A stretch of 64,000 bases of DNA from NCBI RefSeq assembly GCF_014196915.1, contig NZ_JACIEP010000002.1, positions 310,001 through 374,000 on the forward strand, in the 5' to 3' direction. Of this stretch, positions 10,989 through 32,319 are shown in pieces. Each line of letters begins with the position of its first letter. Positions within the stretch are counted from its first letter, which is position 1. Made by a program: the position numbers and the translations under genes. The notes below the pieces were generated by a model, which made no database searches, had not been told where the DNA came from, and saw nothing but the letters and a program-made list of their open reading frames with translations. The DNA is from Dysgonomonas hofstadii (GTDB lineage Bacteria > Bacteroidota > Bacteroidia > Bacteroidales > Dysgonomonadaceae).

Positions 10989-10993
10989 AAGCA

Positions 10994-15515: not shown

Positions 15516-15535
15516 AAAAACACTACTTAATTCGG

Positions 15536-15567
15536 AATAAGCGGCTAGGGATTAGTCGCTTATTTTT
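15536..15567 (+). terminator. rho-independent terminator
   Basis: AATAAGCG pairs with CGCTTATT across a loop of about 13 bases that can extend the stem (CTA/TAG); TTTTT follows. It ends the phosphoesterase transcript. Confidence 0.85.
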
Positions 15568-15710
15568 ATATTGTAACCTGACTTTTAAGTGTCATATAAT
15601 ACTGCATTTAAAATATTAGCAAAATTGTAATAGTCAAGTCACCTTCTGGTAATTGTATTTATGTTGCTTTGAAATATATAGAAAAGCATATAAACAAATT
15701 AAAACTTGCT

Positions 15711-18401
15711 ATGAAACTTATCCGTTTAGTATTCATTTTACTACTTATTACTTGTTTCAATATAACACTATGTGCGCAACAGAACAGAATATCCGGAAAA
15801 ATAACCGATGATAAAGGAGAGAGCTTGGCCGGGGTCAGTGTTATAGTGAAAGGTACCAGAACCGGAATTAATAGTGATCAGGAAGGGTTGTTCACCCTTT
15901 CGGATGTAAAAAGACAGAATATCCTTGTTTTTTCGTTATTAGGCTATATTACAAAAGAGATGCAGGCCAACGAAAGTATGCAGGTGACTTTACAGGAAGA
16001 TACACAACTACTGAATGAAGTGGTTGTAACTACCCAAAAAAGGAGCCAAAGCAATATCGAAGTCCCGGCCGCGGTAAGCGCATTGTCAGGAGAAAACCTG
16101 ACGGCTTTGAACATTAGGCAATTGGATGAATTGTCGGAGTATATCCCGGGTATGCAGATGCAATTGCAGAGTCCTAACAATCCGGGTTATGTGATCCGCG
16201 GGGTAACGTCAGACGATGGTGATTCCCGGTCTCAGCCCAGGGTTTCTGTTTTTCAGGACGGTATATCTATATCCCGGTCTCGCGGGTCTGCAGTAGAGTT
16301 GTTCGACCTGGAACGGATAGAAGTAGTTAAAGGCCCTCAGGGAACACTCTTTGGGCGTGGTGCGGAGATAGGGGCATTACACATCGTGCGTCATAAACCT
16401 GTAAATACTTTGGGCGCAGAGGTCACTCTTGGATATGGATCTCATAATCAGAAGTTAGCTTCCGGATTTATAAATACTCCTATAGTAAAAGACAAATTAT
16501 TAAACCGCTTTTCATTCAACTATGAAGACAGGGATGGTTTTATCAAGAATCTTTCGGGTGGTGATCTGAATGGTAAAAATACCTGGGCAATCAGGAATTC
16601 TACGCGGTTTTTTGGTGGGGAAAATACAATTGCCGATCTTATTTTAGACTATCAACGTGACAATTACCCCGGAACTTCTTTCAAAAACGGACAATATGCC
16701 CCAGCCGGAGGAAATACAGCCCCGAATACAATGGCTGACCTGGAACAAGGTAAAAACCTTTATATAAAGAGAAATGTTGGAGGAGCCGGCTTTTTAATTG
16801 ATCATACAATTAATCCAAACTGGAAATTCTCTTCTATATCCGGATTTCGCGCATTCGACTCAGATGAATCGTTCGATGCGGATGGTACCGCAGCTCCCAT
16901 TCTTTGGGTTTCGGAAAAAGCGAAAGGGACACAGCTAAGTCAGGAGTTCCGCTTTAATTATGACAATAAGGATAATTTTTCAGGTTTTGTCGGAGCGAGT
17001 TATTTTTACGAAAACAATTCCCAGGAAGTACCGATGCGTATTAATGAGCAAAGTTTATATCCGGCCTATATTTCTCCTGTATTGAAAAAAATGCTGACCG
17101 ACCAGTTTGCGGCAACGGGATTTTTGTCTGAAGAGCAGGTTGCCGGGATTGCCGATATGTTATTCCCTTCTACTCCAGCACTAACAGATGGCAAACCGAA
17201 TTATGTAAGTAATATTCCCGACATCAGAACTACATTAGAGCAGGTATTCAGCGCTCAGATGGGTATGCCTCTGAAACTGGAGCAAATATTCGCGCAATTA
17301 CCTGTAGAGACACAGCAGCAACTGATCGGAACCATTGATTTACTCTCCAATCATCCTATAAATGCTTACCATGAAGAGACGTCTAAAAATACAGGTGTGA
17401 ATAACGCGGCAGAGTTCTTTGCCGACGGTACATATAAAATTACTTCCCGACTGGGAATTACCGGTGGTATCAGATTAAGTTACGAACATCAGAAAGGATC
17501 ATACGAATCGGTTGGTTCAGCACAGCCAAGTATATTCGGACAGTTGATGAATCAATCTCCTAATTTGTTGAACCCTGTTTCGAATGGAAAAATTTCAGCG
17601 TCAAAAGACTATTTCTCTTATGTAGGGCGTTTGGCATTAAACTATATGTTTAACCGGAACAATATTTATGCAAGTGTATCGCGGGGCAGGCGTCCGGGCG
17701 TCGTTAGCGTGTTACCTTCTGAAACAACTTATCTTCAACCTGAAATTATCTGGAGTTACGAAACCGGAATAAAAGGGAATGTGCTCAAAGGCAGGCTTAA
17801 CTATGATTTTACCATGTTTTATTATGACTGGAATCATTTCCAGACCACTTCGTTAAAGACGATCGAAGGCAGCCTCACTCCTCAATATCAGGCTAATGAT
17901 GCGGGTAAAGCTCATAGTTTCGGCATCGAAACAGGCTTGAGATACCATTTTATGTCTCAGTTGAGTGCGTTTGCAAATTTCGCGTATATTGATGGCAAAT
18001 TTAATGATGAAGATGAAGACGGAAATCCTCAGGAATATGCAGGAAATAGATTCCGGCTTACCCCCAAACAGACCTTTTCTCTAGGTGTGGATGCGAATAT
18101 CCCATTGAAAGGCGGACAAACCATATTTATACGTCCCGCATATTCTTATAAATCGAAGGTATATTTTGAGGATGACAATACAGAGTTATTAAGCCAAAAA
18201 GGTTACGGACTATTTAATTATACAGCCGGAATTGGATTTAAAATGAATAAGATGTATTGTGAAATCAGTACCTATGGTAAGAATGCTTTTGATAAGAAAT
18301 ACATTATTGATGCCGGAAACAGCGGAAATACTATAGGTATGCCAACATTTATAGGAGGTAGCCCCAGTCAATACGGGGTGCAGATTAAAGTAGGATTCTA
18401 A
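15711..18401 (+). CDS. TonB-dependent receptor with carboxypeptidase-D-like domain
   Basis: 896 residues from the ATG at 15711, which begins a good signal peptide (LIRLVFILLLITCFNITLCA); a TTG start at 15669 is possible but adds a charged leader. Domains: carboxypeptidase-D-like (ISGKITDDKGESLAGVSVIV), plug (YIPGMQMQ, GYVIRGVTS, ERIEVVKGPQGTLFGRGAE) and barrel ending in QIKVGF. The plug is of the siderophore/small-ligand receptor kind, not SusC, and there is no SusD. A small secreted protein follows after 15 bases. Ligand unknown; its place between phosphoester- and phosphonate-related genes suggests a phosphorus compound. Confidence 0.92.
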   Translation: MKLIRLVFILLLITCFNITLCAQQNRISGKITDDKGESLAGVSVIVKGTRTGINSDQEGLFTLSDVKRQNILVFSLLGYITKEMQANESMQVTLQEDTQLLNEVVVTTQKRSQSNIEVPAAVSALSGENLTALNIRQLDELSEYIPGMQMQLQSPNNPGYVIRGVTSDDGDSRSQPRVSVFQDGISISRSRGSAVELFDLERIEVVKGPQGTLFGRGAEIGALHIVRHKPVNTLGAEVTLGYGSHNQKLASGFINTPIVKDKLLNRFSFNYEDRDGFIKNLSGGDLNGKNTWAIRNSTRFFGGENTIADLILDYQRDNYPGTSFKNGQYAPAGGNTAPNTMADLEQGKNLYIKRNVGGAGFLIDHTINPNWKFSSISGFRAFDSDESFDADGTAAPILWVSEKAKGTQLSQEFRFNYDNKDNFSGFVGASYFYENNSQEVPMRINEQSLYPAYISPVLKKMLTDQFAATGFLSEEQVAGIADMLFPSTPALTDGKPNYVSNIPDIRTTLEQVFSAQMGMPLKLEQIFAQLPVETQQQLIGTIDLLSNHPINAYHEETSKNTGVNNAAEFFADGTYKITSRLGITGGIRLSYEHQKGSYESVGSAQPSIFGQLMNQSPNLLNPVSNGKISASKDYFSYVGRLALNYMFNRNNIYASVSRGRRPGVVSVLPSETTYLQPEIIWSYETGIKGNVLKGRLNYDFTMFYYDWNHFQTTSLKTIEGSLTPQYQANDAGKAHSFGIETGLRYHFMSQLSAFANFAYIDGKFNDEDEDGNPQEYAGNRFRLTPKQTFSLGVDANIPLKGGQTIFIRPAYSYKSKVYFEDDNTELLSQKGYGLFNYTAGIGFKMNKMYCEISTYGKNAFDKKYIIDAGNSGNTIGMPTFIGGSPSQYGVQIKVGF

Positions 18402-18416
18402 AATTATAATACAGCA

Positions 18417-18944
18417 ATGAAAAAAGTCTTTTTACTTATTACATTATTGGCTTCATTACTGGTAATGAACGCTCAGGTTAAAGCAGATTTGCAAGATTAT
18501 ACGGGACACTATGTCTTTCCGGAAGGTAGCCTTGCTGAGGACGCCGTTATCTCAATCGTAAATGATACGGTTCTGAATATTACAGCCTCGGTAGGAGAAT
18601 GCGATCTGAAATATGTTGAGGGAGAAACTTTTGCCTTGCCTCAATATGGTGGCAGTATAGTATTTAATCGCAATGCGGAAAATAAGATTGATGGTTTCAC
18701 TGTTTCGATACCGATGGCCGGCATAGATAGCCTGGAAGCCTGTAAAGAAGTTAAAGTTCCGGTTGAGGCTTATATCCACAGTAATAATAGAAGCAAGCAA
18801 CCGGATAATGTGGCCTTAGCTGCAATAAGTTTTATGAACATTGATATGACTCTGGAATCTGATAAAACTCAAAACTCAGGAGGAAACGGAATTATAGCAG
18901 ATTATCCGGACCTACTGGCTAAAATAGCTGAATCCGGAGATTAG
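18417..18944 (+). CDS. small secreted beta-rich protein
   Basis: 175 residues with a signal peptide (VFLLITLLASLLVMNAQ). The body (YTGHYVFPEG, VNDTVLNITAS, SIVFNRNAENKIDGFTV) recalls the lipocalin-like beta-barrel tail (DUF3471 type) found on some secreted serine hydrolases, here standing alone; this is a pattern resemblance only. It is 15 bases after the TonB receptor and before a terminator, so it is probably a periplasmic partner of that receptor. Confidence 0.8.
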   Translation: MKKVFLLITLLASLLVMNAQVKADLQDYTGHYVFPEGSLAEDAVISIVNDTVLNITASVGECDLKYVEGETFALPQYGGSIVFNRNAENKIDGFTVSIPMAGIDSLEACKEVKVPVEAYIHSNNRSKQPDNVALAAISFMNIDMTLESDKTQNSGGNGIIADYPDLLAKIAESGD

Positions 18945-19147: not shown

Positions 19148-20023
19148 TTATTTTATTGACAACAAAATTTTTTTCTCAGTGATTAAATCGTCTTGGTTAA
19201 ACTGAGGAAAAGGAATAGAGCACATTTTGATTACATCTGATGAACCTGATACATAATCATAATATACTTTAAGATGATTATCAATCTCATCCTTCTCTAT
19301 TATTCTCCCTGTCAGACTTTCTATATCGATCGGGGATTCATTTTTCACAAAAAGGATTCGACGAGCTATCGGATTTCTATTATAATCTAATGTCATATAC
19401 ATTCCCCTCAGGAATTTAACATTTTCATAAAACGGCAATTGAAGATAAATAGTTACCAATGCCAGTTGAGACTCATCTGATTCATTGAGCATGATATACA
19501 TACTATACCCATGTATTACGATGGCAATTCCCGAATTTAATGAATTGTATGCATTTTTCCTGACAACATTTATTTGCCCCATTTCGCCATTTTCTAAAAT
19601 AAAAGGTTCTTTCTTCAGGGCATCCCGGGCCGATGACAGGCTGTAACTATCATAAGATCCTAAATAACTTAGTGCTATATCATCAGATTTTTTTGAGAAT
19701 TTATCAAGAGAATTGATAAATGTGCCTTTGCCTGGAGTGCTGATATGAGGGATGAAAGATGATAGCCGGGTGTGTATGTCTGTAATGGATGCCAATAGCC
19801 TTTTCTTTGACACATTGTTTACCTGGGATATGGCATAATCTAACGCTTCATTTTTTCCTAATTTCTCAAGATTATTCAGGTATGCGGGCAGAACAGTAGA
19901 ATATATCGCCGAAACAACACTGGAAGGCATATCAATATGATTGGCGATATCCTTCATCTTTATGCCTTTCTGCCGCAAATCATTTATCTGTTTATATACT
20001 TCTTTTAGCAAATCAAAAAACAT
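19148..20023 (-). CDS. HTH protein divergent from the phosphonate locus, putative regulator
   Basis: A 291-residue cytoplasmic protein of no family I recognise. The N-terminal 50 residues hold a probable HTH (LRQKGIKMKDIANHIDMPSS). The rest is a mixed alpha/beta region without membrane helices (SGIAIVIHGYSMYIMLNE, LALVTIYLQLPFYENVKFLRG) that could be a ligand-sensing domain. It is transcribed away from the SusC gene of the AEP locus across a 204-base gap, the usual place for a local regulator. No other regulator is seen in that locus. The regulatory role is inferred from the HTH and position only. Confidence 0.75.
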   Translation of the reverse strand: MFFDLLKEVYKQINDLRQKGIKMKDIANHIDMPSSVVSAIYSTVLPAYLNNLEKLGKNEALDYAISQVNNVSKKRLLASITDIHTRLSSFIPHISTPGKGTFINSLDKFSKKSDDIALSYLGSYDSYSLSSARDALKKEPFILENGEMGQINVVRKNAYNSLNSGIAIVIHGYSMYIMLNESDESQLALVTIYLQLPFYENVKFLRGMYMTLDYNRNPIARRILFVKNESPIDIESLTGRIIEKDEIDNHLKVYYDYVSGSSDVIKMCSIPFPQFNQDDLITEKKILLSIK

Positions 20024-20190
20024 GGAGTCGTTGGTTTATCAGGCATGAAGATATTATATGCTTGTTAATTATATTTTACGAAATTGCTATATTTTCTTCC
20101 TGTTTATTGCATAAATATTAAGTAATAAAACCCCCTGTATTTTAATAAATTATTCATTATAAATTCATAGACGGAATGGTTTTGCTCACA

Positions 20191-20198
20191 TAATTTTG
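20191..20198 (+). promoter_or_regulatory. candidate -7 element of the phosphonate operon (TAATTTTG)
   Basis: TAATTTTG matches TAnnTTTG and lies 30 bases before the SusC start at 20228 in the divergent gap. A correctly spaced -33 TTTG is not evident, which would fit a promoter that needs an activator. Confidence 0.45.
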
Positions 20199-20227
20199 AG
20201 CCAAACTAACATACAAAAGATGATTAT

Positions 20228-23200
20228 ATGGAAAATTTATTTAAAAAAAATGTAGTACTTATATGTTTTCTGTTCATGTTTTTTAGTGTATTTGCTCAGA
20301 ATACATTTAAAGTTAGAGGTGTTGTTACTGATCAGAATGGAGAGATCCTTCTTGGCGCCACTATTCTGGAAAAAGGGACAAGCAATGCTACTCTGACGAA
20401 TGAAAATGGCGAGTATGAATTGGCAATATCTTCGCCTGACAAAACCTTAGTATATTCTTATCTGGGAGCCTTATCTCAGGAGCTAAAGGTAAATAACAGG
20501 ACATTAATTAATGTATCCTTACAGGAAAATCAACAGTTGCTCGACGAAGTGGTTGTGACTGCATTAGGAATATCGAGAGAGAAAAAAGCATTGGGATATG
20601 CAGTCCAGGACATAAAGGGAAGTGATATGGATGGTCATGTGTCTAATTTTTCATCAGCCCTTTCCGGGAAAGTTGCAGGCGTTACCGTGAATACGAACTC
20701 TACGGTGGGAGGACATAGCCGTGTTGTTATCAGGGGTGAGTCGTCATTAAATTATCAGGCAAACCAGCCGCTCTATGTAATAGACGGGATACCTGTCGGG
20801 AATGATGCCGTGCAGAACCATAGTAATGCCGACTATGGCAACAGTTCTGCTGAATTCAATCCGGATGACGTGGAATCGATAAGCGTGCTCAAAGGCGCTG
20901 CCGCATCCGCTCTCTATGGTTCCAGAGCCGCCAACGGAGTAATAATGATTACAACCAAATCCGGAAAGAACCAGAAAGGGCTGGGGATATCATACAGCGG
21001 GTCATTCTCAAGGGAAACACCCCTGAGGCTTCCTCAGTTGCAACGTCTGTTTGGGCAGGGAAACAATGGCGTATATGAAGGCAGCAACTTTGGATATAGC
21101 AATGGAGGCTTGTATCCCGATGGTGTAAACGACAGTTACGATGAAAGCTGGGGGCCTCGTTTCGATGGCAAACCCCGTGTACAGTTCGATTCACCTACCG
21201 ACAATGGGTATAGGGCAGGCGACGTATATTTGCAGGATCGCGGTAACCCCATCGCGACACCATGGGTAGCCCATCCCGATAATCTAAAAGACTTTTTCGA
21301 TTCGGGATATACCCGTGTGCACAATGTAGCTATTAGTAATGCCAATGACAAAGGAAGCTTCAGGGCATCTTATACCAATCATAATCAGGAAGGATTGACT
21401 CCTAATAATAAAATGACACGCAATACTTTCAATATAAACTCAACTTACGAAATCAACAAGTGGGTTGACGCCTCATTCGTGGGTAATTATATTAAAACCA
21501 AAAGTACCAATCGCCCCGATTTAGGTTATGGCCGCGAAACGCCAATGTATTTCTTCATTTGGTTACCTCAAAGTAACAATATAAATAGTTATAAGAACTA
21601 CTGGACTACCGGCATGGAAGGGATACATCAGTTTCAGGGGAACTATGGGGAAAATCACAATAACCCGTATTTCTATCAGTATGAAAATACTTCGGAGCAA
21701 AATAAGGATAAATTTTTTGGTAATCTGAAATTTGACGTAAAGCTAAATGATAAACTGAAGTTCATGCTTCGGGGTGGTACAGATTTTTACAGCGATTTTC
21801 GACCTCGTAAAATGGCTGTAAGTACGGCAGACTATCCGGAAGGTTTTTATCAAGAAACGAAAATTACTTTTCAGGAAAATAACTTTGACGGGCTCTTAAC
21901 CTATAACACTACCATAAATAAGGACATCAGCCTCATTGCCAATTTGGGAGCCAACCAAATGGATCGTAAACAAAGGACATCCATAAATACGGCGAATAGC
22001 CTGATTATTCCGGGTCTTTATTCTTTGGGCAACTCTAAAGAACGTCCTTCTGTGTCGGCATATGGATATCATAAACGTATCAATAGCGTGTATGGAAACG
22101 TTCTGTTAGATTATAAAAGAACAGTGTTTTTAGACCTGTCGGGACGAAATGACTGGTCCAGTACCTTACCTGAGGATAAAAATTCCTATTTCTATCCCGC
22201 CATTACAGCAAGTGTGTTGATAAATGAAGTGGCTAACCTGCCATCATATATAGACATGCTGAAAATAAGGGGAGGCTATGCACAGGTAGGTAATGATACC
22301 GACCCTTACAATCTGCGTACGACTTATTCCTATGGCGGATTTTACGGAAATTATGCGCTTATTTCGGAAGAAAGCGCGTTAAAAAACAAAAACTTAAAGC
22401 CTGAACTTATTACCACAATAGAGGGTGGTCTCGAACTAATGATGTTTAATAATCGGTTGAGCGTCGATCTTAGTTGGTACCAATCCGATTCGAAAGACCA
22501 GATTCTTAACCTGCAATCGACTCCGACATCAGGATACGGAAGCCAGGTTATCAATGCCGGAAAACTCCGAAATACAGGATTTGAACTGGTACTGGGTGCT
22601 ACTCCCATTAAACTGTCTAATGGATTTGAATGGAATGTAAATGTAAATTTTGCAACAAATAGAGGAAAAGTCTTAGAGTTGGCTGAAGGCTTGGATGAGC
22701 TCGTTGTATCTGCTCCCGGCGAGGATGCAAAAATGGTGGCTAAGGTTGGAGAACGGTTAGGTCAGCTATACGGACCTGGATTTGAACGTGTCAAAGAAGG
22801 CCCTATGAAAGGTGAAATTATCATCGGGGCGAATGGGTTGCCGGTGATGACCGAAGATCCTATCCTGTTAGGAAATGTAAATCCTGATTGGACGGCCGGT
22901 ATATATAACAGTTTCTCATTCAAAGGATTTTCTCTTAGCTGCCTGTTCGATATCCGTCAGGGCGGAGTATTTGTATCCCGCACACTCAACAAGGGAATTG
23001 GCTCAGGGCAATTGGTAGAAACCGAAACAGGGCGTGGCGCCCGCCAGATAGGTACGGAGTACGACGACCCTTATTACCTTGAGGGTGCTGCTCAGCTACC
23101 CGATGGAACATATACCCCTAACCTGACGATACATGATGGAACCTACAGTCAGGGCGTATATGGCACTGATGCCCGTGGTTTTCACAAAAATTACTATGAC

Positions 23201-23482
23201 CACAATTCCGAAGCACAAAAACTGGATGCATCGTTTGTAAAACTCAGGGAACTTAAGTTCGGATACCAGTTTCCACAAAAAATGCTGCAAAAAGTACACC
23301 TGAAAAATGCTGGCATCTACCTGTTCGGAAGAGATCTCCTTTTGTTCACTGACGGGAAAAACAAACATATAGATCCGGAGAATGCAATGGCTAACACAGG
23401 AAACGGCCTTGTTTTAGGTTTCGAAAATCTGAGTATCCCAACTTCCAAAAGTATAGGGATACAGTTAAATCTGAGTTTCTAA
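20228..23482 (+). CDS. SusC/RagA-family receptor of the aminoethylphosphonate locus
   Basis: 1084 residues: signal peptide (VVLICFLFMFFSVFAQ), carboxypeptidase-D-like domain (VRGVVTDQNGEILLGATIL), plug (LDEVVVTALGIS, LSGKVAGVTV, plus the SusC-type tail SVLKGAAASALYGSRAANG) and a 22-strand-type barrel ending in LNLSF. There is no STN domain, so it is not wired to an ECF sigma system, unlike the SusC at 7560. It is the first gene of an apparently single operon running to 31245 that ends with phosphonate-degrading enzymes, so its cargo is probably AEP or an AEP-carrying glycan or lipid fragment (inference). Confidence 0.95.
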   Translation: MENLFKKNVVLICFLFMFFSVFAQNTFKVRGVVTDQNGEILLGATILEKGTSNATLTNENGEYELAISSPDKTLVYSYLGALSQELKVNNRTLINVSLQENQQLLDEVVVTALGISREKKALGYAVQDIKGSDMDGHVSNFSSALSGKVAGVTVNTNSTVGGHSRVVIRGESSLNYQANQPLYVIDGIPVGNDAVQNHSNADYGNSSAEFNPDDVESISVLKGAAASALYGSRAANGVIMITTKSGKNQKGLGISYSGSFSRETPLRLPQLQRLFGQGNNGVYEGSNFGYSNGGLYPDGVNDSYDESWGPRFDGKPRVQFDSPTDNGYRAGDVYLQDRGNPIATPWVAHPDNLKDFFDSGYTRVHNVAISNANDKGSFRASYTNHNQEGLTPNNKMTRNTFNINSTYEINKWVDASFVGNYIKTKSTNRPDLGYGRETPMYFFIWLPQSNNINSYKNYWTTGMEGIHQFQGNYGENHNNPYFYQYENTSEQNKDKFFGNLKFDVKLNDKLKFMLRGGTDFYSDFRPRKMAVSTADYPEGFYQETKITFQENNFDGLLTYNTTINKDISLIANLGANQMDRKQRTSINTANSLIIPGLYSLGNSKERPSVSAYGYHKRINSVYGNVLLDYKRTVFLDLSGRNDWSSTLPEDKNSYFYPAITASVLINEVANLPSYIDMLKIRGGYAQVGNDTDPYNLRTTYSYGGFYGNYALISEESALKNKNLKPELITTIEGGLELMMFNNRLSVDLSWYQSDSKDQILNLQSTPTSGYGSQVINAGKLRNTGFELVLGATPIKLSNGFEWNVNVNFATNRGKVLELAEGLDELVVSAPGEDAKMVAKVGERLGQLYGPGFERVKEGPMKGEIIIGANGLPVMTEDPILLGNVNPDWTAGIYNSFSFKGFSLSCLFDIRQGGVFVSRTLNKGIGSGQLVETETGRGARQIGTEYDDPYYLEGAAQLPDGTYTPNLTIHDGTYSQGVYGTDARGFHKNYYDHNSEAQKLDASFVKLRELKFGYQFPQKMLQKVHLKNAGIYLFGRDLLLFTDGKNKHIDPENAMANTGNGLVLGFENLSIPTSKSIGIQLNLSF

Positions 23483-23521
23483 ACAGGCTCTTTTGTACAA
23501 TATTTAAAAACAAATTTCCGT

Positions 23522-25075
23522 ATGAAAAAGATATATAAATTCATTTCAATCATTTTGGGCTTTCTATTTATACAGTCTTGTACAAATGATTTCGAAGACA
23601 TAAATACAAATCCAAACAGCCCCGAAGAAATTAAACAGGTAGAACTATTACTGCCTTCCATTATCAATAGCGCATCGAGGTCATATTTCAGCAACACTTT
23701 GTCGAGAGGGACAATCGTTTGCGATTATTTGGAAGATACGTTCACAAGCATGTTTGCCAGCGCATTCAATGCTACAGATACAGAACGGTATTATTTCGGT
23801 TGCCTGCGCGATGTACAAAATATAATCGATGCGTCCGACGCGGAAGCAAATCCCCACATGCTGGGAATAGGAATTACATTAAAGTCGTGGATGTTTCAGG
23901 TAATGACTGATATGTACGGGGACTTTCCTTATTCGCAAGCCCTGAAAAACAAAACCGAAGGGAATAAATATCCGGTATATGACAAGCAGGAAGATATCTA
24001 TTACGATCTGATAGCGAAACTCGATGAGGCCAATACGCTTCTTGGTAAAAATTCGGCGGAGAACATATCCAAAGATATCCTGTTCGATGGGGATGCGGTC
24101 AAATGGCAGAAGTTTGCAAACGGTCTTCGCATACGCCTCCTGATGAGAATATCTGATAAATCCGGACTGAAAATAAATGTAGCGCAACTTCTACAGGAGA
24201 TGGTATCTAATCCGGCAAAATACCCGTTATTCGAAAGCAATGCCGACAATGCTGTTTTTACTTTTCTGAACGAGGAGGGCAATTATGCACCATCTTACAC
24301 CAATACGCCGGCCGATTTTAACAACAGCCGTTTTATGGCAACCACTTTAGCGGCTAATCTCGAAGCATTGAACGACAACAGGATACATGCCTATGCCAGC
24401 CCTACAAAAAACAGTGTGGTACAAGGCAACCCTCAGTTTGCAGGCGTGCCTAACTGTCTGAACACAGCCGATGAGATTAACTTCAATGGAGGTACGAATG
24501 ATAATTCAACCTTGAGCAACATTTTTCTTCCCCGGTCTATCGACCCTGCTATTGCTTCGCCAACAGCGGCTCAAACCATTATCTTAACCTACAGTGAGAT
24601 ACAGTTGCATTTAGCCGAAGCGCGGGAAAGAGGGCTGATTTCGACAGGCAATGCCGAAACTTATTACAGGGAAGGCATCAATGCCAGTTTCGAATATTGG
24701 GCGAGCCGCGTGCCTTCATATTTCACCTATCCTGCAAGCAGCAATATTTTGCCGCAGAATGACTATATGACACAACCGGCAGTGGCCTATACCGGGACAC
24801 AAGCCCAAAAGCTCGAAAAAATATATACCCAGAAATGGATTGCGCTCTTTTTCTGCGGCTTCGAGGGTTGGAGTGAATGGCGAAGAACCGGTATCCCCCA
24901 TCAAATATCGACAACGCCTCCCGGCGGATATAACAGCAGCAGTGCTATAAATGAATGGCCTCGCCGCATCCCGTATCCTCAATTCGAACAAAATTATAAT
25001 AACAAAAACTATAAAGAGGCTGTTGGCCGACAAGGTGCCGATAATCTGACTACCCGTATTTGGATAGATAAATAA
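23522..25075 (+). CDS. SusD-like lipoprotein of the aminoethylphosphonate locus
   Basis: 517 residues, lipobox LFIQSC (Cys20), followed by FEDINTNPNSPEE, the usual N-terminus of the SusD-like_2 group. Helical repeats include LKSWMFQVMTDMYGDFPYSQALK and KWQKFANGLRIRLLMRIS. It pairs with the SusC encoded 39 bases upstream and would bind the ligand at the cell surface. The phosphodiesterase gene starts 3 bases after its stop. Confidence 0.94.
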   Translation: MKKIYKFISIILGFLFIQSCTNDFEDINTNPNSPEEIKQVELLLPSIINSASRSYFSNTLSRGTIVCDYLEDTFTSMFASAFNATDTERYYFGCLRDVQNIIDASDAEANPHMLGIGITLKSWMFQVMTDMYGDFPYSQALKNKTEGNKYPVYDKQEDIYYDLIAKLDEANTLLGKNSAENISKDILFDGDAVKWQKFANGLRIRLLMRISDKSGLKINVAQLLQEMVSNPAKYPLFESNADNAVFTFLNEEGNYAPSYTNTPADFNNSRFMATTLAANLEALNDNRIHAYASPTKNSVVQGNPQFAGVPNCLNTADEINFNGGTNDNSTLSNIFLPRSIDPAIASPTAAQTIILTYSEIQLHLAEARERGLISTGNAETYYREGINASFEYWASRVPSYFTYPASSNILPQNDYMTQPAVAYTGTQAQKLEKIYTQKWIALFFCGFEGWSEWRRTGIPHQISTTPPGGYNSSSAINEWPRRIPYPQFEQNYNNKNYKEAVGRQGADNLTTRIWIDK

Positions 25076-25078
25076 TAA

Positions 25079-26734
25079 ATGATGATGAAAAAGATATTTT
25101 TGATAATAGCGATCCTGTTTCAGCTAAACGCTGTAGCCCAGCAACCTGCAACAGGTATTGAACATGTAATTGTAATAGGTATTGATGCCTTGAGTGTAGA
25201 AGGATTAAAAAAAGCCTCAACACCGAATATGGACAAACTTATTCGCAACGGAGCTTTATGTGAACATGTCAGGACAGTACAACCGTCATCCAGCGCTGCC
25301 AACTGGGGATCTATGCTGATGGGAGCCGGAACCGAGATACACGGGGTAACGAACAACGATTGGCGGATAAATGACCATAGCCTCAAGGCTGTGGTAGTAG
25401 ATAAACAGGGATTTTTTCCTACAGTATTGAGTGTAATCAGGGCGCAGCGTGCAGATGCCGAACTGGGGATGATATATCATTGGAGTGGTTTTGGCGACCT
25501 TTTTGAGAAGGGCTTGGCTTCCGTCGATAAGACTTATCCCACTCAGGAGGAAACAGCTTTAGCTATGGCCGCGTATATAAAAGAAAAGAAACCGATGTTT
25601 TTATTTTCACAATTCGATGATGTGGATGCGGCCGGACACCACGACGGGCACATGTCGCAAGGCTATATGGATTGTATCGGCAGAACCGATTCATTGGTCG
25701 GTATCATTGTTGATGCAGTGAAAGAAGCCGGTATAGAGAATAAGACAATGATTATGATTGTTTCGGATCATGGTGGTATTGGATTGGGACACGGAGGTAC
25801 AACCCAGGAGGAAATAACAGTTCCTTTTATTTTAAGAGGAAAAGGGATAAAACAAAATTATTCTATTCCTACCGAGGTATATATGTTTGATGTAGCGCCT
25901 ACCATCACTTATGCTTTGGGTCTGAAAGAGCCTTATGCATGGCGCGGAAAAGCTATCCGATGTGCATTCGAAGGTAACGACTCCCCCATTGATCCTTTAC
26001 CTTTGATACGATTTGCAAATCCGCCTAAAATTAATGGAGGACGAGCATCTGCAGCTCAGCAGGGAGGTTTGTATGTAGATAAAACGGCAATAGTTAAGAT
26101 AGAAGGAAACGATTCTTCCGATAAGATTTATTATACGACGGATGGCACCGATCCAACACAAGAATCGAAATTATATACAGCGCCGTTCACTCTAAACAAA
26201 ACAACTGTAGTGAAAGCCAAATCTTTCGGAAAGAACGATACTGAAAGTTTTATATCGGAGGCTTACTTCCGTATTGTAAGCAGTAATGAGGCAAATGGCG
26301 TGAATGTCAGCTACTTTGAAGGCAAAGAGTGGAACAGTGTACCTGATTTTCGTCCCCTGAGTCCCGATAAGACATGGAAAAGTCCGGAAATAAGTCTCGA
26401 CCGTGAGTATATTAAGTCTTTAATGCCGGAAGGAAAGAGTTCATTAGGATTACAATTCGAGTCTCTTCTTGAGATTGATCAGGACGGAGAATACACCTTT
26501 TATCTCCAATCGGATGATGGCAGCCTGTTATATGTAAATGACCAATTGGTTGTAAATAACGATGGTGATCATGGGGTGATAGAAAAGCAGGGCACGGTAA
26601 AACTCACAAAGGGGAGACATCATATCCGCGTAGGATTCATCAATGTTGGTGGAGGCTTTTGGATAGAGACTCTGTACAGAGGCCCCGGCATTCCGAAACA
26701 AATTATCCCGGCTAATAAATTATTCTTGAGATAA
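25079..26734 (+). CDS. secreted alkaline-phosphatase-superfamily phosphodiesterase with PA14 domain
   Basis: 551 residues with a signal peptide. Residues about 28-295 are a type I phosphodiesterase/nucleotide pyrophosphatase fold: metal ligands are probably Asp36, Asp183, His187, Asp230-His231 (SDHGG) and His238 (GLGHGG), with the nucleophile in PSSSAANW (70-72). Residues about 325-400 resemble a chitobiase C-terminal domain (YYTTDGTDPTQESKLYTAPF), and about 405-551 a PA14 domain (YTFYLQSDDGSLLYVNDQL). The two C-terminal modules suggest carbohydrate contact. Inference: it frees AEP, or a phosphonate ester, from glycans or lipids before import. Its stop overlaps the next start (TAATG). Confidence 0.88.
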   Translation: MMMKKIFLIIAILFQLNAVAQQPATGIEHVIVIGIDALSVEGLKKASTPNMDKLIRNGALCEHVRTVQPSSSAANWGSMLMGAGTEIHGVTNNDWRINDHSLKAVVVDKQGFFPTVLSVIRAQRADAELGMIYHWSGFGDLFEKGLASVDKTYPTQEETALAMAAYIKEKKPMFLFSQFDDVDAAGHHDGHMSQGYMDCIGRTDSLVGIIVDAVKEAGIENKTMIMIVSDHGGIGLGHGGTTQEEITVPFILRGKGIKQNYSIPTEVYMFDVAPTITYALGLKEPYAWRGKAIRCAFEGNDSPIDPLPLIRFANPPKINGGRASAAQQGGLYVDKTAIVKIEGNDSSDKIYYTTDGTDPTQESKLYTAPFTLNKTTVVKAKSFGKNDTESFISEAYFRIVSSNEANGVNVSYFEGKEWNSVPDFRPLSPDKTWKSPEISLDREYIKSLMPEGKSSLGLQFESLLEIDQDGEYTFYLQSDDGSLLYVNDQLVVNNDGDHGVIEKQGTVKLTKGRHHIRVGFINVGGGFWIETLYRGPGIPKQIIPANKLFLR

Positions 26735-28008
26735 TGGGAGTTAAGGCGCAAAAGCAACCATCCGATATTCTGTTCATTATCTGGGCCGGAGGCGGGTCAT
26801 TATTTGCTTATTTTCTGGTTTATACATTACGGAAAGCATTTACTGCTTCTACTTTCGACGGACTGGAACTTTTTAGTCTGGACTATAAAGTGGTTATCAG
26901 TATAAGCCAGATATCGGGTTACCTGTTGGCGAAATTTCTTGGTATCAAATTCGTCTCGGAACTCAAGCGCAATCACCGCCTGCCCGTAATTGTCATATCG
27001 GCAGCCTGTGCCGAACTGTCTTTGGTCTTATTTGGGGCTATCTCATATCCGTTCAACTTTTTTTGCCTGTTCTTCAATGGATTGTCGTTGGGTTGTATGT
27101 GGGGTTTCCTGTTCTCCTATCTCGAAGGGCGGAAGCTGACCGATATTTTAGCCAGTTTTTTGGGCGTAAGTATGGTCGTTAGTTCGGGAGCGGCAAAATC
27201 GCTTGGGCTTTTTGTCCTTGATATGGATGTAAGCCCTTTCTGGATGCCGGCAGTTATAGGGGCGGTTACTTTCCCGCTATTGGTTACGATAGCCTGTTTT
27301 CTGGATCGCTTGCCCGACCCGACGGATGAAGATAAAGCAAATCGCACGGAACGTATCCCGCTCGGAGGAAAGCAACGGATGTCATTGTTGAAGAAGTATA
27401 GTACATTGCTGATACCATTTCTTATTGTCAATGTCCTGTATACTGTGCTGCGTGATATAAAGGAAGATTTTTTAGTAGATATTCTAAGGCATACGAGCAT
27501 AAATCTTACCTCTTTTTTGTTTGTGCAGGTAGATTCCGTTATAACGATCATTCTCTTGGTAGTATTTGGTGCGATGATTTTAATTAAAGATAATGCAAAA
27601 TCCCTGAATATATTGCTGTTGTTGATGATGACCGGTTCCCTGTTTGTCCTGTTTACTTCTTTATTTTTTAATCAATTAAGCACCACCCCGGTTACCTGGT
27701 TGTTTTTGCAGAGTATAGGTATCTATACGGCATACCTGGCATTTCAGACTATATTCTTCGATCGTTTTATTGCTTGTTTCAGGATTGCAGGCAATGTCGG
27801 TTTCTTTATCTATTTAGCCGATTTTCTTGGGTATTTGTTTTCCTGTGTTTTCTTACTTGGAAAGTCGGTTTTAGGATTTGAAATTAATTGGCTGCAATAT
27901 TATAATTCCCTGTCGATAGGAATTAGTTTGATCTGTATTTTATCTATTACAATTGCTTTAAAAGTGCTGTATAATAAACAAAGAAGTTTAACCCTTGTAA
28001 AAATATAA
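26734..28008 (+). CDS. DUF5690-type polytopic membrane protein, candidate phosphonate importer
   Basis: 424 residues with about twelve hydrophobic helices in two halves joined by a charged loop (FLDRLPDPTDEDKANRTERIPLGG), the layout of MFS-type carriers. The beginning (LFAYFLVYTLRKAFTASTFDG) matches my memory of the DUF5690 family, whose function is not established. It is translationally coupled to the phosphodiesterase gene and lies 4 bases before phnX. No other inner-membrane transporter is present in the operon, so it is the obvious candidate importer of AEP or a related phosphonate. This role is inferred from context. Confidence 0.8.
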   Translation: MGVKAQKQPSDILFIIWAGGGSLFAYFLVYTLRKAFTASTFDGLELFSLDYKVVISISQISGYLLAKFLGIKFVSELKRNHRLPVIVISAACAELSLVLFGAISYPFNFFCLFFNGLSLGCMWGFLFSYLEGRKLTDILASFLGVSMVVSSGAAKSLGLFVLDMDVSPFWMPAVIGAVTFPLLVTIACFLDRLPDPTDEDKANRTERIPLGGKQRMSLLKKYSTLLIPFLIVNVLYTVLRDIKEDFLVDILRHTSINLTSFLFVQVDSVITIILLVVFGAMILIKDNAKSLNILLLLMMTGSLFVLFTSLFFNQLSTTPVTWLFLQSIGIYTAYLAFQTIFFDRFIACFRIAGNVGFFIYLADFLGYLFSCVFLLGKSVLGFEINWLQYYNSLSIGISLICILSITIALKVLYNKQRSLTLVKI

Positions 28009-28012
28009 AATA

Positions 28013-28810
28013 ATGTCAAAAGAAAAACAAATAGAATGCGTTGTTATGGATTGGGCAGGTACAGCCATCGATTTTGGATGTTTCGCACCTGTAGACGCTT
28101 TTGTAAAAGCATTCCGGGATTTTAATATTAAAGTCACAACGGACGAAGTCCGTATCCCTATGGGAATGGCTAAAATAGAACATATAAGGCAATTGCTTCG
28201 GATGAGCCGGGTCAATAGCGAATTCAAGGCCTTATACGATAGGGATTGGGTGGAATCAGATGTTGTAAAACTGAATCAATTCTTTGAGAAATATCTTTTT
28301 TCTACGTTGTCTGAATATACTGATCCCATACCTTACGTTGTAGACACATTAAATACTCTCCGGATTAAGAATATCAAAATTGGTTCTACAACCGGTTACA
28401 CACGCAAGATGATGGATATTGTAGAGCCTGCCGCAGGTATGAAGGGGTATGTGGTTGACAATTGTGTTACACCGGATGATTTACCAATGGGACGCCCCGC
28501 ACCATTTATGATTTTCAGGAACATGATTGATTTGAATATTCAAAATCCGGATTGTGTGGTCAAAGTTGGTGATACAGTCGAAGATATCCGTGAAGGAATA
28601 AATGCTAAAGTATGGACAGTGGGTGTTGTGATGGGAAGCAGTATGCTTGGTATATCTGAATATGAGGCAAATGAAATGCCCGAAACCGTGTTAACTGAGA
28701 AAATGAATATAGTCAGATCCGAAATGTCAGCCACAGGGGCACATTATGTAATTGATTCAATAACAGAACTTCCCCAAGTTATAGAACAAATTAATACGAA
28801 TATAAAATAA
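28013..28810 (+). CDS. phnX: phosphonoacetaldehyde hydrolase
   Basis: 265 residues of the HAD superfamily. The Asp nucleophile is in VMDWAGT (Asp13). The Schiff-base Lys that distinguishes phosphonatases is Lys54 in IPMGMAKIEHI, and the acidic HAD motif is VKVGDTVEDI. It cleaves the carbon-phosphorus bond of phosphonoacetaldehyde to acetaldehyde and phosphate. Length and motifs agree with the family. Its TAA stop shares a base with the ATG of phnW, so the two products are made together. Confidence 0.96.
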   Translation: MSKEKQIECVVMDWAGTAIDFGCFAPVDAFVKAFRDFNIKVTTDEVRIPMGMAKIEHIRQLLRMSRVNSEFKALYDRDWVESDVVKLNQFFEKYLFSTLSEYTDPIPYVVDTLNTLRIKNIKIGSTTGYTRKMMDIVEPAAGMKGYVVDNCVTPDDLPMGRPAPFMIFRNMIDLNIQNPDCVVKVGDTVEDIREGINAKVWTVGVVMGSSMLGISEYEANEMPETVLTEKMNIVRSEMSATGAHYVIDSITELPQVIEQINTNIK

Positions 28811-29892
28811 TGAAACCATATATATTATTAACACCCGGCCCCCTGACTACCTCGCCAACAGTAAAAGAGAAAATGATGGTGGATTACTGTACATGGGACG
28901 ACGACTATAATATATCAATAGTACAAAATATCAGGGATCGCCTGGTTGCTTTAGCCACAAAACATACAGCAGACTATACATCCGTCTTGTTACAGGGTAG
29001 CGGAACGTATGCTGTTGAAGCTACAATAACCTGTTCCATGTCGCAAAAAGACAAAGTGTTAATACTCACGAATGGTACATATGGCGACCGGATGATAACT
29101 ATTTGCCAATATGCAAAACTAAATTATGAAGTATTGGCATTTGGAGAGGCAGAACCTCTATCATTATCTGAGTTAGATTCTTCTCTGCAAAAGATGAACG
29201 ATATTACACATGTGGCGTTTGTTCATTGCGAAACTACTTCGGGTATATTGAATCCATTGGAAGACTTGTGCCTGATCGCGAAAAAACACAATAAAACGCT
29301 TATTGTAGATGCCATGAGCAGTTTTGGAGGAATACCGTTCGATATAGGTAGTCTGGGTATTGATTATATGATAAGCAGTGCAAACAAATGCATAGAAGGT
29401 GTTCCCGGATTTGCCTTTATTATAGCCAGACATAGCGAATTGGAAAGATGTAAGGGAAACTCAAAAAGTTTGTCACTGGATATATATGCTCAATGGAAAA
29501 CAATGGAAGATGGCAATGGAAAATGGCGATTTACTTCTCCAACCCATACCGTAAGAGCTTTTAAGCAGGCTCTGGATGAGCTTGACGCCGAAGGAGGGAT
29601 AGAAAGCAGATATAAAAGATATAAGGAAAATCAACAGATATTGGCTCAGGGAATGAAATCGTTAGGATACAATATCTTATTACCGGAAGATATACAGTCG
29701 CCAATTATATCTTCATTTGAATATCCGGATGAAAATTTCTCATTCAAAGATTTTTATACAAAACTGAAAGAACAGGGATTCGTTATTTATCCCGGAAAAA
29801 TATCGGGGACGGATACATTCAGAATCGGCTCTATCGGCCAAATATATCCAACCGATATGAAGAAACTAATAGAAGCGATATCATCATTATAA
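28810..29892 (+). CDS. phnW: 2-aminoethylphosphonate:pyruvate aminotransferase
   Basis: 360 residues, class V PLP-dependent aminotransferase. Family signatures are visible: LLTPGPLTTS at the N-terminus, QGSGTYAVEA for cofactor phosphate binding, Asp167 in VDAMSSFG, and the PLP Lys193 in SSANKCIEGVPG. It converts AEP and pyruvate to phosphonoacetaldehyde and alanine, the step before PhnX. It starts on the last base of the phnX stop codon, and the PbfA-like gene follows after 9 bases. Confidence 0.96.
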   Translation: MKPYILLTPGPLTTSPTVKEKMMVDYCTWDDDYNISIVQNIRDRLVALATKHTADYTSVLLQGSGTYAVEATITCSMSQKDKVLILTNGTYGDRMITICQYAKLNYEVLAFGEAEPLSLSELDSSLQKMNDITHVAFVHCETTSGILNPLEDLCLIAKKHNKTLIVDAMSSFGGIPFDIGSLGIDYMISSANKCIEGVPGFAFIIARHSELERCKGNSKSLSLDIYAQWKTMEDGNGKWRFTSPTHTVRAFKQALDELDAEGGIESRYKRYKENQQILAQGMKSLGYNILLPEDIQSPIISSFEYPDENFSFKDFYTKLKEQGFVIYPGKISGTDTFRIGSIGQIYPTDMKKLIEAISSL

Positions 29893-29901
29893 CCACAATA
29901 T

Positions 29902-31245
29902 ATGTTACAGGATTTAAGGAGTGAAGGGGATGTTAATCTTTCACGTCTACACACAGTCTGGCAAAATAAGTTGCAGGAAACAGAGGCCTCCCGTTTTCTC
30001 GAACGCGACAAAAGCCAATATCTTCATCAGTCACTTTCTACTCCATGCCTCGATGTGTTGGATAGGGCGGAGGGTGTATATTTATATGCCAAAAGTGGGA
30101 AAAAATATATTGACTTTCATGGCAACAATGTTCATCAGTTAGGACACAAGAATCCTTATATTGTTGACCGTATCAAAACACAGATGGATGTGCTTCCATT
30201 TTCGCCCCGCCGTTTTACGAATGAACCTGCAATCGAATGTGCCGAAAAGCTTGCAAGCCTGATGCCTTCAGACCTGAATAGGGTATTGTTTGCCCCTGCC
30301 GGGACATTGGCAGTAGGAATAGCTTTGAAGCTTGCCCGTGTCGTAACAGGAAAATATAAAGTCGTTTCGGTGTGGGACGCTTTTCATGGTGCCTCAATGG
30401 ATGCTATTGCAGTCGGAGGAGAGGCTCAGTTTAGGGCAGGCATAGGGCCTTTATTTCCCGGAGTGGAGCGTATTCCCCCACCGATGCTTTATAGAGGTGT
30501 TTTTGAAACAGATAATGATTCTATATATGCTGATTATCTCGAATACGTTGTGCAAAAAGAAGGAGATATTGGAGCTTTCATCATCGAAACTATCCGTAAT
30601 ACTGATGTACAGATACCATCATTGGCATATTGGAAACGGGTACGCGAAATATGTGATAAATATAATATCCTGTTGATTCTGGATGAAATTCCAATCGCTT
30701 TCGGAAGAAGCGGCAAGATGTTTGCTTTCGAGCACTTTGGGATAGAACCCGATATTATCTGTATTGGAAAAGGTATGGGAGGCGGAATATTTCCAATGGC
30801 CGGAATAGTTGTCCGCGAATCGTTTAATATAGCTAAAGACATCTCGCTGGGGCATTATACGCATGAAAAATCTCCTTTAGGCTGTGTTGCTACTTTGGCT
30901 ACGATAGAATATATTGAACAGAATAATATATTATTGAAGGTACAAGAGGATCAAGCCTATATAAAGGAGCGTTTAGATACGTTGCAATCCATGTACTCCA
31001 GTATCGGAGATGTCAGGGGAATTGGTGCTCTGTGGGGAATTGAGTTAGTAAAAGACCGAAAGACGAAAGAACCTGCATCCGATCTGGCCGAAACCATACT
31101 ATATCGATGTTTGGATAATGGGCTGAGCTTTAAGGTGTCGAAAGGAAATATAATACAACTATCTCCTCCTCTTACCATCTCCAAAAAAGAATTGGACACA
31201 TCTTTTGATATATTAAGGAATGCATTTAAAAGCTCGATAAATTAG
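29902..31245 (+). CDS. pbfA: class III PLP enzyme, probable (R)-1-hydroxy-2-aminoethylphosphonate ammonia-lyase
   Basis: 447 residues with the class III aminotransferase fold: YIDFHGNNVHQLGHKNP at the N-terminus, Asp261 in LILDEIP, and PLP Lys290 in IGKGMGGG. Enzymes of this subgroup linked to phnW and phnX (PbfA) eliminate ammonia from (R)-1-hydroxy-AEP to give phosphonoacetaldehyde, so the PhnW/PhnX route can also use this oxidised AEP. The position directly after phnW strongly favours PbfA over an ordinary transaminase. An unusual APAGTLAVG stretch stands where aminotransferases often have a GSEA-type motif. Function is assigned from family and context. Confidence 0.85.
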   Translation: MLQDLRSEGDVNLSRLHTVWQNKLQETEASRFLERDKSQYLHQSLSTPCLDVLDRAEGVYLYAKSGKKYIDFHGNNVHQLGHKNPYIVDRIKTQMDVLPFSPRRFTNEPAIECAEKLASLMPSDLNRVLFAPAGTLAVGIALKLARVVTGKYKVVSVWDAFHGASMDAIAVGGEAQFRAGIGPLFPGVERIPPPMLYRGVFETDNDSIYADYLEYVVQKEGDIGAFIIETIRNTDVQIPSLAYWKRVREICDKYNILLILDEIPIAFGRSGKMFAFEHFGIEPDIICIGKGMGGGIFPMAGIVVRESFNIAKDISLGHYTHEKSPLGCVATLATIEYIEQNNILLKVQEDQAYIKERLDTLQSMYSSIGDVRGIGALWGIELVKDRKTKEPASDLAETILYRCLDNGLSFKVSKGNIIQLSPPLTISKKELDTSFDILRNAFKSSIN

Positions 31246-31303
31246 CACAAAACATAAAGAGGTCTCAAAAGTAAATTTATCTCTTTGAGAATTACAGACC
31301 GAA

Positions 31304-31338
31304 GAAAAAGGGGCTTGTCCAATATCGAGGATAGCCCC
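31304..31338 (-). terminator. bidirectional terminator between convergent operons
   Basis: GGGGCT at 31310-31315 pairs with AGCCCC at 31333-31338. On the minus strand the stem is followed by TTTTTCTTC, a good tail for the gene ending at 31362. On the plus strand the tail is poorer but may also stop the phosphonate operon. A second weaker inverted repeat (TCTCAAA/TTTGAGA) lies just before it. Confidence 0.75.
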
Positions 31339-31361
31339 ATTATAATAGATATTAATCATGC

Positions 31362-32318
31362 TTATTTTTTTACACGCTGAATACTATGCAGGGGTACCGC
31401 ATTCTGATCGAGCATGATAAGTTTTAGTGTGTCAGGGGTGACAGAAACTACAGAAAAGCCAGCCTCTCCCGAGCTAAACTGCATACCTTCGATAGGTACA
31501 ACCTCACGGCTCAATGACCCGGACGAATTGACTACATAATCTATATCGCTACCCTCCATACGGATATGCTGGAAATTGTGTATGTGCCCGCATATATAAA
31601 AGTCTACTCCTCCACGGCGCAGAATCGGGTCGAGACGTGCCTGCATATCTATGCGTTCCTCATCGTCTTTATTCGTTCCGGCATAGATGGGATGATGTCC
31701 TACCACAATTTTCCATGTTTCCTGCGAAGCAGTCAGTACTGAGTCAACCCATTGCAGTTGGCGATCCATATCCTGCTTGCCTGCATCGGAATATTCTTCG
31801 TCATTGCGGTATTTATCTATTAATGGAGCCGTGTCGATAAATACAAGTCGCAAAGATGCGCCTTCTTCCACCTCGTATTTACGGGTGTAATACCGTGCAG
31901 GCATTACCCACCTGCGGCTAACCGCAGAATAATCTATTACGGCTTGTGGGTTACCCTGGTATTCGTGGTTACCGAGTATAGGAAGCCATTCCACCTGTAA
32001 TTCGGGATGCTCATAGATGAGTTCGTAATTGGTCATCCACAGCGGGTCATCTATGCTTTGTACTCCCAAATAATGGTGTATGTCACCGGCGGCAACCACA
32101 AATTCTATATCGACCCTTTCGGCCAGCAACCCCATTTCATTGGCAATAGGTTTCTGCAAGTAATGGCCATTGCGGCCAAGGTCATTGGCTACGATGAAGT
32201 TGAGCGCATTCTCCGGAAGCTCGGATAATTTGCTGTTGTTTTCTTCTTTTTTTACTCCAATCTTACTGCAACTGCCCAGCAGGATGAGTATCAGCATTGA
32301 AAATAGTATTCTTTTCAT
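31362..32318 (-). CDS. purple-acid-phosphatase-like metallophosphoesterase lipoprotein
   Basis: 318 residues from the ATG at 32318, with lipobox LLGSC (Cys17). Metallophosphoesterase motifs: VANDLGRNGHY (the usual GDWG is altered to AND-LG), AAGDIHHY, GNHEYQGNP, VGHHPIY and CGHIHNFQ. The pattern resembles mammalian tartrate-resistant acid phosphatase type 5, which removes phosphate from many esters. It begins one base after the stop of the TonB receptor upstream, so the pair probably forms a surface phosphate-ester scavenging unit. Inducer unknown; phosphate limitation is likely. Confidence 0.88.
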   Translation of the reverse strand: MKRILFSMLILILLGSCSKIGVKKEENNSKLSELPENALNFIVANDLGRNGHYLQKPIANEMGLLAERVDIEFVVAAGDIHHYLGVQSIDDPLWMTNYELIYEHPELQVEWLPILGNHEYQGNPQAVIDYSAVSRRWVMPARYYTRKYEVEEGASLRLVFIDTAPLIDKYRNDEEYSDAGKQDMDRQLQWVDSVLTASQETWKIVVGHHPIYAGTNKDDEERIDMQARLDPILRRGGVDFYICGHIHNFQHIRMEGSDIDYVVNSSGSLSREVVPIEGMQFSSGEAGFSVVSVTPDTLKLIMLDQNAVPLHSIQRVKK

Positions 32319-32319
32319 A

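Follow-up and report, generated by a model that had tools for sequence, protein, structure and literature searches.

How might a bacterium obtain phosphorus from aminophosphonates that are bound within larger molecules? This question is raised by a locus of Dysgonomonas hofstadii (phylum Bacteroidota, order Bacteroidales), the genome of which comprises 5.04 Mb in 44 contigs. We analyzed a stretch of 64,000 nucleotides from contig NZ_JACIEP010000002.1 (G000:C2:310001-374000), hereafter called the window, and count positions from its first letter. Seven packed genes on the plus strand (20228-31245) encode, in this order, SusC, SusD, a phosphodiesterase (PDE), DUF5690, PhnX, PhnW and PbfA. Probably, these genes form one operon that scavenges aminophosphonates from larger or esterified molecules. 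The genes and the region upstream are as follows (lengths in amino acids, aa):

19148-20023, minus strand: candidate regulator, 291 aa, divergent, without a match to a Pfam or NCBIfam family.
20024-20227, no strand: intergenic region, by its position the presumed promoter/operator of operon and regulator.
20228-23482, plus strand: SusC-type TonB-dependent outer-membrane channel, 1084 aa (TIGR04056, 644.8 bits; cut-off 368.25).
23522-25075, plus strand: SusD-type lipoprotein, 517 aa (PF12771, SusD-like_2, 303 bits).
25079-26734, plus strand: exported type I phosphodiesterase, 551 aa (PF01663, 87.7 bits, cut-off 23; PF07691, PA14; PF13290, CHB_HEX_C_1, Fn3-like).
26734-28008, plus strand: DUF5690 membrane protein, 424 aa (PF18943, 427.4 bits).
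28013-28810, plus strand: PhnX, phosphonoacetaldehyde hydrolase, 265 aa (TIGR01422, 330 bits; cut-off 220).
28810-29892, plus strand: PhnW, 2-aminoethylphosphonate:pyruvate transaminase, 360 aa (TIGR02326, 557.1 bits; cut-off 400.8).
29902-31245, plus strand: PbfA (NF049939, 700.5 bits; cut-off 525).

The frames are open, and the gaps from SusC to PbfA measure 39, 3, -1, 4, -1 and 9 bases, with PhnX and PhnW overlapping by one base. Because of this packing, the seven genes are presumed to constitute a single putative transcript. The original prediction had described SusCD, a phosphodiesterase and phn genes in one run that is tightly packed or overlapping from SusD to PbfA, and the gene map bears this out. 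Its gene list is right in the genes it named and omitted DUF5690, which lies between PDE and PhnX. Two details need correction: position 19148, given as the operon start, is the 3' end of the divergent minus-strand gene, the run itself beginning at 20228, and the catabolic genes, listed as PhnW, PhnX, PbfA, are in fact ordered PhnX-PhnW-PbfA. The central claim of a SusC/SusD-linked aminophosphonate utilization locus is well supported by gene identity, packing and recurrence.

What could such a gene set do? PhnX, PhnW and PbfA each exceed a curated cut-off, and the window PhnW is the sole match over cut-off in the genome. PhnW converts 2-aminoethylphosphonate (AEP) and PbfA converts (R)-1-hydroxy-AEP to phosphonoacetaldehyde, which PhnX processes further (PMC8154272). 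Because of the family identity of the three proteins, PhnW and PbfA of the window would both yield phosphonoacetaldehyde, from AEP and hydroxy-AEP, respectively, and PhnX would split it into acetaldehyde and phosphate. Before these steps, SusD may capture a phosphonate-bearing ligand for import through the outer membrane by the TonB-driven SusC. The exported PDE would cleave the phosphonate ester to release AEP and (R)-1-hydroxy-AEP, and DUF5690 might move both compounds across the inner membrane. Polysaccharides of Acanthamoeba castellanii were the first source from which hydroxy-AEP was isolated; the paper that says so also cites a phosphonoglycan containing AEP and 1-hydroxy-AEP (PMC8154272), the substrates of PhnW and PbfA. 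Such a phosphonoglycan would suit a gene set of SusCD, PhnW, PbfA and a PDE that bears PA14 and Fn3-like domains. A larger ligand feeding the locus, phosphonoglycan or phosphonolipid as originally proposed, is plausible. The proposed contrast with ABC or major facilitator superfamily (MFS) importers does not stand: the operon encodes a putative MFS-type carrier of its own, to which SusCD would add a step at the outer membrane.

PhnW is able to serve synthesis or breakdown of phosphonates (PMC8154272), and apparent clusters of phosphoenolpyruvate (PEP) mutase, a decarboxylase and PhnW were seen by eye in the phylum (L046-L048). PhnW of the window might accordingly act in AEP synthesis or in the recycling of the cell's own phosphonates. 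PhnX and PbfA, however, are degradative, and the genome has no PEP mutase match at E 0.001, because of which AEP biosynthesis by this locus was rejected. We give this explanation hardly any credence.

Is the arrangement peculiar to this genome? For comparison, up to 20 kb were fetched around PhnW/PhnX and DUF5690 matches and genes were labeled by home-made profile hidden Markov models with bit thresholds of our own, checked on single representatives; in L038 the PhnX gene is overlaid by a spurious open reading frame (ORF), and in L044 the ORF picker missed DUF5690 and PhnX. Among 395 genomes of the phylum, 14 have a PhnW over its cut-off, as do 9 of 295 in the order; PhnX exceeds its cut-off in 6 of 395 class genomes. 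Order relatives share a core that consists of a divergent regulator homolog and DUF5690-PhnX-PhnW (L035, L038, L130, L131, L132). Variants place the regulator between PhnX and DUF5690 (L134), combine regulator, PhnX and PhnW without DUF5690 (L125) or have DUF5690-PhnX-PhnW and no regulator on a contig of 6.3 kb (L133). SusCD is absent from the operon in every one of these loci; in L038, a SusC gene ends about 4 kb from the regulator, past three other genes. The best matches of the window DUF5690, PhnX and PhnW are found in these cores (52%, 56% and 66% identity).

The other part of the operon recurs in more distant genomes. In G202, of the same class (L215, L142), SusC, SusD, PDE, PbfA, a second AP-superfamily gene, DUF5690, a FAD oxidoreductase and a PhnX-like gene follow each other on one strand. 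G182, also of the class, carries SusC-SusD-PDE, a 423-aa protein, PbfA, a metallophosphoesterase and a second AP-superfamily gene (L202); on the far side of its SusC and of a divergently oriented XRE gene lies a PhnX-like/FAD/DUF5690 group (L095). Lack of a conserved SusCD-phosphodiesterase-phn order in relatives would have spoken against the original prediction; instead, SusC-SusD-PDE-PbfA is kept in both genomes, with one gene intervening between PDE and PbfA in G182, and SusCD accompanies phosphoesterases and phn genes elsewhere. In G840, of the same order (L135, L154), SusC-SusD is followed by a 402-aa protein, two metallophosphoesterases, PhnX, an MFS gene, PbfA, an AP-superfamily gene and PhnW. 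G621 and G675 have PhnX-PhnW-SusC-SusD and a phosphoesterase-type protein of 901 aa. Hence, phosphoesterases of other families occupy the place of PDE in other loci. The loci of G258 and G840 contain an MFS gene (by Pfam) and that of G215 a homolog (by alignment), with no DUF5690 labeled there. In a PbfA tree of 14 rows, the window, G202, G182 and G840, all with SusCD loci, share one side of a branch (support 79/95), and the window, G202 and G182 group alone with support 85/84, neither fork being strongly supported. Judged from these gene orders, the operon looks like a mosaic in which SusC-SusD-PDE may have been added upstream and PbfA downstream of the order-relative core of regulator and DUF5690-PhnX-PhnW; the direction of this assembly is our suggestion.

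Does the SusCD pair belong functionally to the phn genes? SusD carries a lipobox (LFIQSC, by eye). The genome contains 56 SusC matches, and one SusCD neighbor therefore proves little, which is why relatives were examined. With so many copies in 5.04 Mb, and with cores of order relatives that are devoid of SusCD, a polysaccharide-type pair might have been inserted upstream of a phn operon by chance and have no functional link to it. The one-strand packing with overlaps speaks against a chance neighborhood, as does the lack of any glycoside hydrolase or other carbohydrate-active enzyme (CAZyme) catalytic domain in a Pfam scan of the seven genes, which revealed only PA14 and CHB_HEX_C_1 as accessory domains. 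Moreover, the association is repeated in other families, a recurrence that weakens this explanation, and related SusC proteins are found in phosphonate loci. In a search of 18 genomes picked for their SusC/SusD-phosphonate loci, the seven proteins most similar to the SusC of the window (768-917 bits) are without exception encoded in phosphonate loci; each of the next six by rank has a SusD and no labeled gene of carbon-phosphorus (C-P) catabolism. Per genome, the best match is the SusC of the phosphonate locus in 9 of 18 cases. Based on these ranked and per-genome matches, the SusC group of the window is enriched for, yet not restricted to, phosphonate loci according to sequence similarity. 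Overall, we regard a chance neighborhood as very improbable. The top SusC match outside phosphonate loci (L234, in G182) lies upstream of an apparent binding protein, two permeases, an ATPase and a nucleoside-hydrolase-like gene (by eye).

Which molecules would be taken up depends largely on PDE. The original prediction called it secreted: a Sec-type signal is visible by eye, and periplasmic and extracellular locations are not distinguishable. By sequence, it belongs to the nucleotide pyrophosphatase family; its solved relatives comprise nucleotide pyrophosphatases and sulfatases and, at weaker similarity, phosphonate monoester hydrolases. Residues D36, S72, D183, H187, D230, H231 and H238, which we take to be metal and nucleophile residues by analogy with nucleotide pyrophosphatases, are invariant in seven of seven sequences on contigs with phosphonate genes (window included). 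At a threshold of E 1e-25, the catalytic domain was found 24 times, spread over 16 of 395 genomes. PhnW exceeds its cut-off in 12 of these 16 genomes, as compared to 14 of 395 overall (Fisher 6e-18, with related genomes treated as independent). By manual reading, the 24 matches correspond to 21 ORFs; for 10 of these, a C-P gene is no farther away than about 10 kb. In G182 and G202, PDE has PbfA beside it. PDE may free aminophosphonate from phosphonate esters.

The family membership of PDE would also suit general organophosphorus scavenging, in which SusCD and PDE handle ordinary phosphodiesters such as phospholipid head groups, nucleotides or teichoic-type polymers, while the phn genes are co-regulated under phosphate starvation and free AEP enters via porins. 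PusCD systems of Flavobacterium have been interpreted in this way (PMC8115612), and the remaining 11 of the 21 PDE-family ORFs are away from phn genes. Against this stand the co-occurrence of PDE with PhnW, the retention of SusC-SusD-PDE-PbfA in distant genomes and the position of PDE between PhnW and PbfA, with no labeled SusC or SusD, in L041, L043 and L045. Overall, general scavenging appears unlikely. These last three loci (G352, G258 and G215, respectively), all from the phylum of the window, are PhnW-PDE-PbfA-PhnA-PhnY clusters, their genes being confirmed by NCBIfam in L043 (PhnY just under the cut-off) and by home-made profiles in L041 and L045. A combination of pbfA, phnY and phnA is said to occur in Proteobacteria only (PMC12366243).

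SusCD might alternatively import free or small aminophosphonates as a high-affinity outer-membrane step, with PDE serving another purpose and no larger ligand involved. In several loci, SusCD indeed accompanies C-P genes with no labeled PDE-superfamily gene within 6 kb, e.g., in G391, G204 and G300:C6, of which G204 has a PhoD-type phosphatase. AEP is, however, small enough to pass porins, the PA14 and Fn3-type domains of PDE suggest bulky substrates, and in other loci phosphoesterases of other families stand in for PDE. We therefore consider free-AEP import improbable.

The step across the inner membrane would fall to DUF5690. This family has 47 copies in 42 of 395 genomes, and 34 copies have a C-P catabolism label within 6 kb (called linked in the following), 30 of them labels of at least two kinds. 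By strict labels alone (PhnW, PhnX, PbfA, PhnA, PhnY), 11 of 47 copies are linked. Near the 34 linked copies, a TIGR03364-type FAD oxidoreductase occurs 23 times and a TIGR03276-type HD oxygenase 13 times. When one representative per label was compared with NCBIfam, PhnX-like (203.5; cut-off 218.9) and HD (209.1; cut-off 214.6) scored just under and FAD (367.7; cut-off 285.1) over the cut-off. Among the linked copies, 16 of 34 have a SusC or SusD gene within 6 kb, as compared to 1 of 13 unlinked copies; none of 20 control regions has one (12 kb each, from 19 genomes, taken at a distance of about 100 kb from a DUF5690 copy, which was an unlinked one for 6 of the 20). An AP-superfamily gene is near 16 of 34 linked vs. 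0 of 13 unlinked copies. The structure model of DUF5690 is of low confidence (pLDDT 53.5); its top Foldseek matches are MFS carriers, e.g., the glucose-6-phosphate carrier SLC37A4, and the 50 matches shown are MFS proteins judging by their names (best E 1e-4). Profile comparison with MFS by hhalign gave a weak match (E 0.013, probability 3.3), and the DUF5690 profile had no match among PDB sequences. From model and gene context, DUF5690 is probably an inner-membrane transporter, and we propose that it is an aminophosphonate permease of MFS type. None of the papers in the literature searched names DUF5690. Outside the Bacteroidota, a TonB-dependent receptor, DUF5690 and PhnX stand in a one-strand row near PhnW in three Pseudoalteromonas genomes (L055, L056, L057); used as a single query in a genome scan, PhnW retrieved three Pseudoalteromonas loci and nothing else.

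Several observations weigh against scavenging of bound aminophosphonates by one dedicated operon. With 56 SusC genes in the genome, a SusCD neighbor is not rare. The other 9 of the 18 genomes searched have their best SusC match outside the phosphonate locus, and 11 PDE-family ORFs have, by the same manual reading, no C-P gene closer than about 10 kb. Of the linked DUF5690 copies, 23 count only through PhnX-like, FAD or HD genes; 13 of 47 have no nearby C-P gene, and the family is thus not confined to phosphonates. SusC or SusD is within 6 kb of only 3 of the 11 strictly linked copies, one of these (G347) being a separate SusC outside the operon. The MFS fold of DUF5690 depends on the low-confidence model and the weak profile comparison. 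Furthermore, seven order relatives (L035, L038, L125, L130, L131, L132, L134) have PhnX-PhnW and neither SusCD nor PDE in the operon, and no PhnW match at 1e-100 was obtained in G699 of the same genus or in G855 and G950 of the same family. The locus is hence sporadic, and its outer-membrane part is not general.

How might the operon be controlled? The protein encoded at 19148-20023 is helical with an HTH-like N-terminus (by eye). In order relatives, eight homologs (35-46% identity) adjoin DUF5690/PhnX/PhnW or DUF5690 alone. When 60 order genomes were searched with the alignment of the regulator, matches were found in 7 of 9 PhnW-positive genomes vs. 0 of 51 others, the latter being those not among the PhnW genomes listed in the order-wide search. 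Two of the seven have a second copy, G351:C8 (beside DUF5690, with no labeled C-P gene) and G715:C13. A PDB profile search gave one weak match (E 0.04), and a single-sequence AlphaFold model (pLDDT 41) was unusable and discarded. Judging by its conserved neighborhood, the divergent gene is probably the regulator of the locus. An 11-bp direct repeat, TTNCAT-N5-TTNCAT-N5-TTNC, is perfect in five of nine divergent phn regions, the window counted among the nine; the perfect repeats are located in the intergenic regions of L038, L125, L130, L131 and L132. With at most one mismatch, it also occurs upstream of two of four pstS genes over cut-off (G978, G887), as compared to one such match in 240 kb of control sequence. 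The repeat is therefore a candidate Pho box of the order to which the window belongs. The near-perfect repeats upstream of pstS are in L221 and L222. A Pho box at the window operon is unsupported: the repeats are clear in relatives and degenerate in the window, where the copy in 20024-20227 has three mismatches and the sole site within one mismatch, at position 4859, is away from the operon. No PstS match in the genome exceeds its cut-off (best score 84.9 bits).

Similar systems are known. PhnW-PhnX(-PbfA) clusters for hydrolytic AEP degradation likewise unite, in a single gene run, the three enzymes that the window has at equivalog level. They are drawn with phosphonate transporter genes (PMC8154272), whereas the run of the window has SusCD, an exported PDE and DUF5690; "SusC", "TonB" and "phosphodiesterase" are absent from the main text of that paper. 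As in the window, where PDE starts three bases after SusD, the PusCD phosphate utilization systems of Flavobacterium combine a SusCD-like complex with adjacent phosphoesterases (PMC8115612). In contrast to them, the window has a complete pathway for AEP and hydroxy-AEP beside SusCD, and "phnX", "phosphonatase" and "2AEP" do not occur in the main text of PMC8115612. AepP, a GlpT-related MFS permease for AEP, is a single-component inner-membrane carrier next to phnWX/phnWAY and is described from a Bacteroidetes as well (PMC8316502). DUF5690 is a separate Pfam family with a weakly supported relation to MFS. Polysaccharide utilization loci likewise unite SusC/SusD, an exported hydrolase and catabolic genes, but the seven genes of the window include no CAZyme catalytic domain. 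The general idea thus exists, because PusCD loci with "phosphonate-degrading enzymes" and an AepP-type AEP permease with phn genes are already in print. No description of a SusCD-PhnWX or SusCD-PDE-DUF5690-PhnX-PhnW-PbfA operon was found among the titles and abstract starts listed, a scope that leaves aside subscription journals, preprints and supplements.

This locus and those related to it point to a way in which bound AEP could be used by Bacteroidota: harvest of phosphorus from larger aminophosphonate-bearing molecules would parallel the harvest of sugars from polysaccharides by related clusters. Three things thereby become testable, namely an outer-membrane phosphonate route, the existence of a phosphonate diesterase and the function of DUF5690. 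More tentatively, and somewhat short of an even chance in our estimate, such loci might form a phylum-wide class in Bacteroidota in which SusCD imports phosphonate esters, a dedicated phosphonate diesterase and the DUF5690 permease family follow, and C-P modules are interchangeable (PhnWX-PbfA; PhnWAY; FAD oxidoreductase TIGR03364 with PhnX-like TIGR03351 and HD oxygenase TIGR03276). The version in the window would then target a phosphonoglycan or phosphonolipid bearing AEP and 1-hydroxy-AEP, e.g., a protist surface glycan, under a new regulator family.

Around the operon, the window contains no tRNA genes or Rfam matches, and no inverted repeat of at least 12 bases was found in 31200-31420. 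A metallophosphoesterase and a TonB-dependent receptor on the minus strand (31362-35136) are convergent to the operon. A tyrosine integrase with an Arm-DNA-bind_5 domain (37376-38590) may indicate mobility close to the locus. Just upstream, 5580-18944 encodes an ECF sigma factor, FecR, SusCD, a 422-aa protein, a calcineurin-type phosphoesterase (MetallophosN/C) and a TonB receptor, and is possibly a second organophosphorus uptake locus. Its 422-aa protein (12448-13716), downstream of this other SusCD pair, has no Pfam match and an N-terminal NTGRGDA...PDGT motif that looks metallo-beta-lactamase-like by eye; homologs with 39-42% identity are found in the phosphonate loci L105 and L202.

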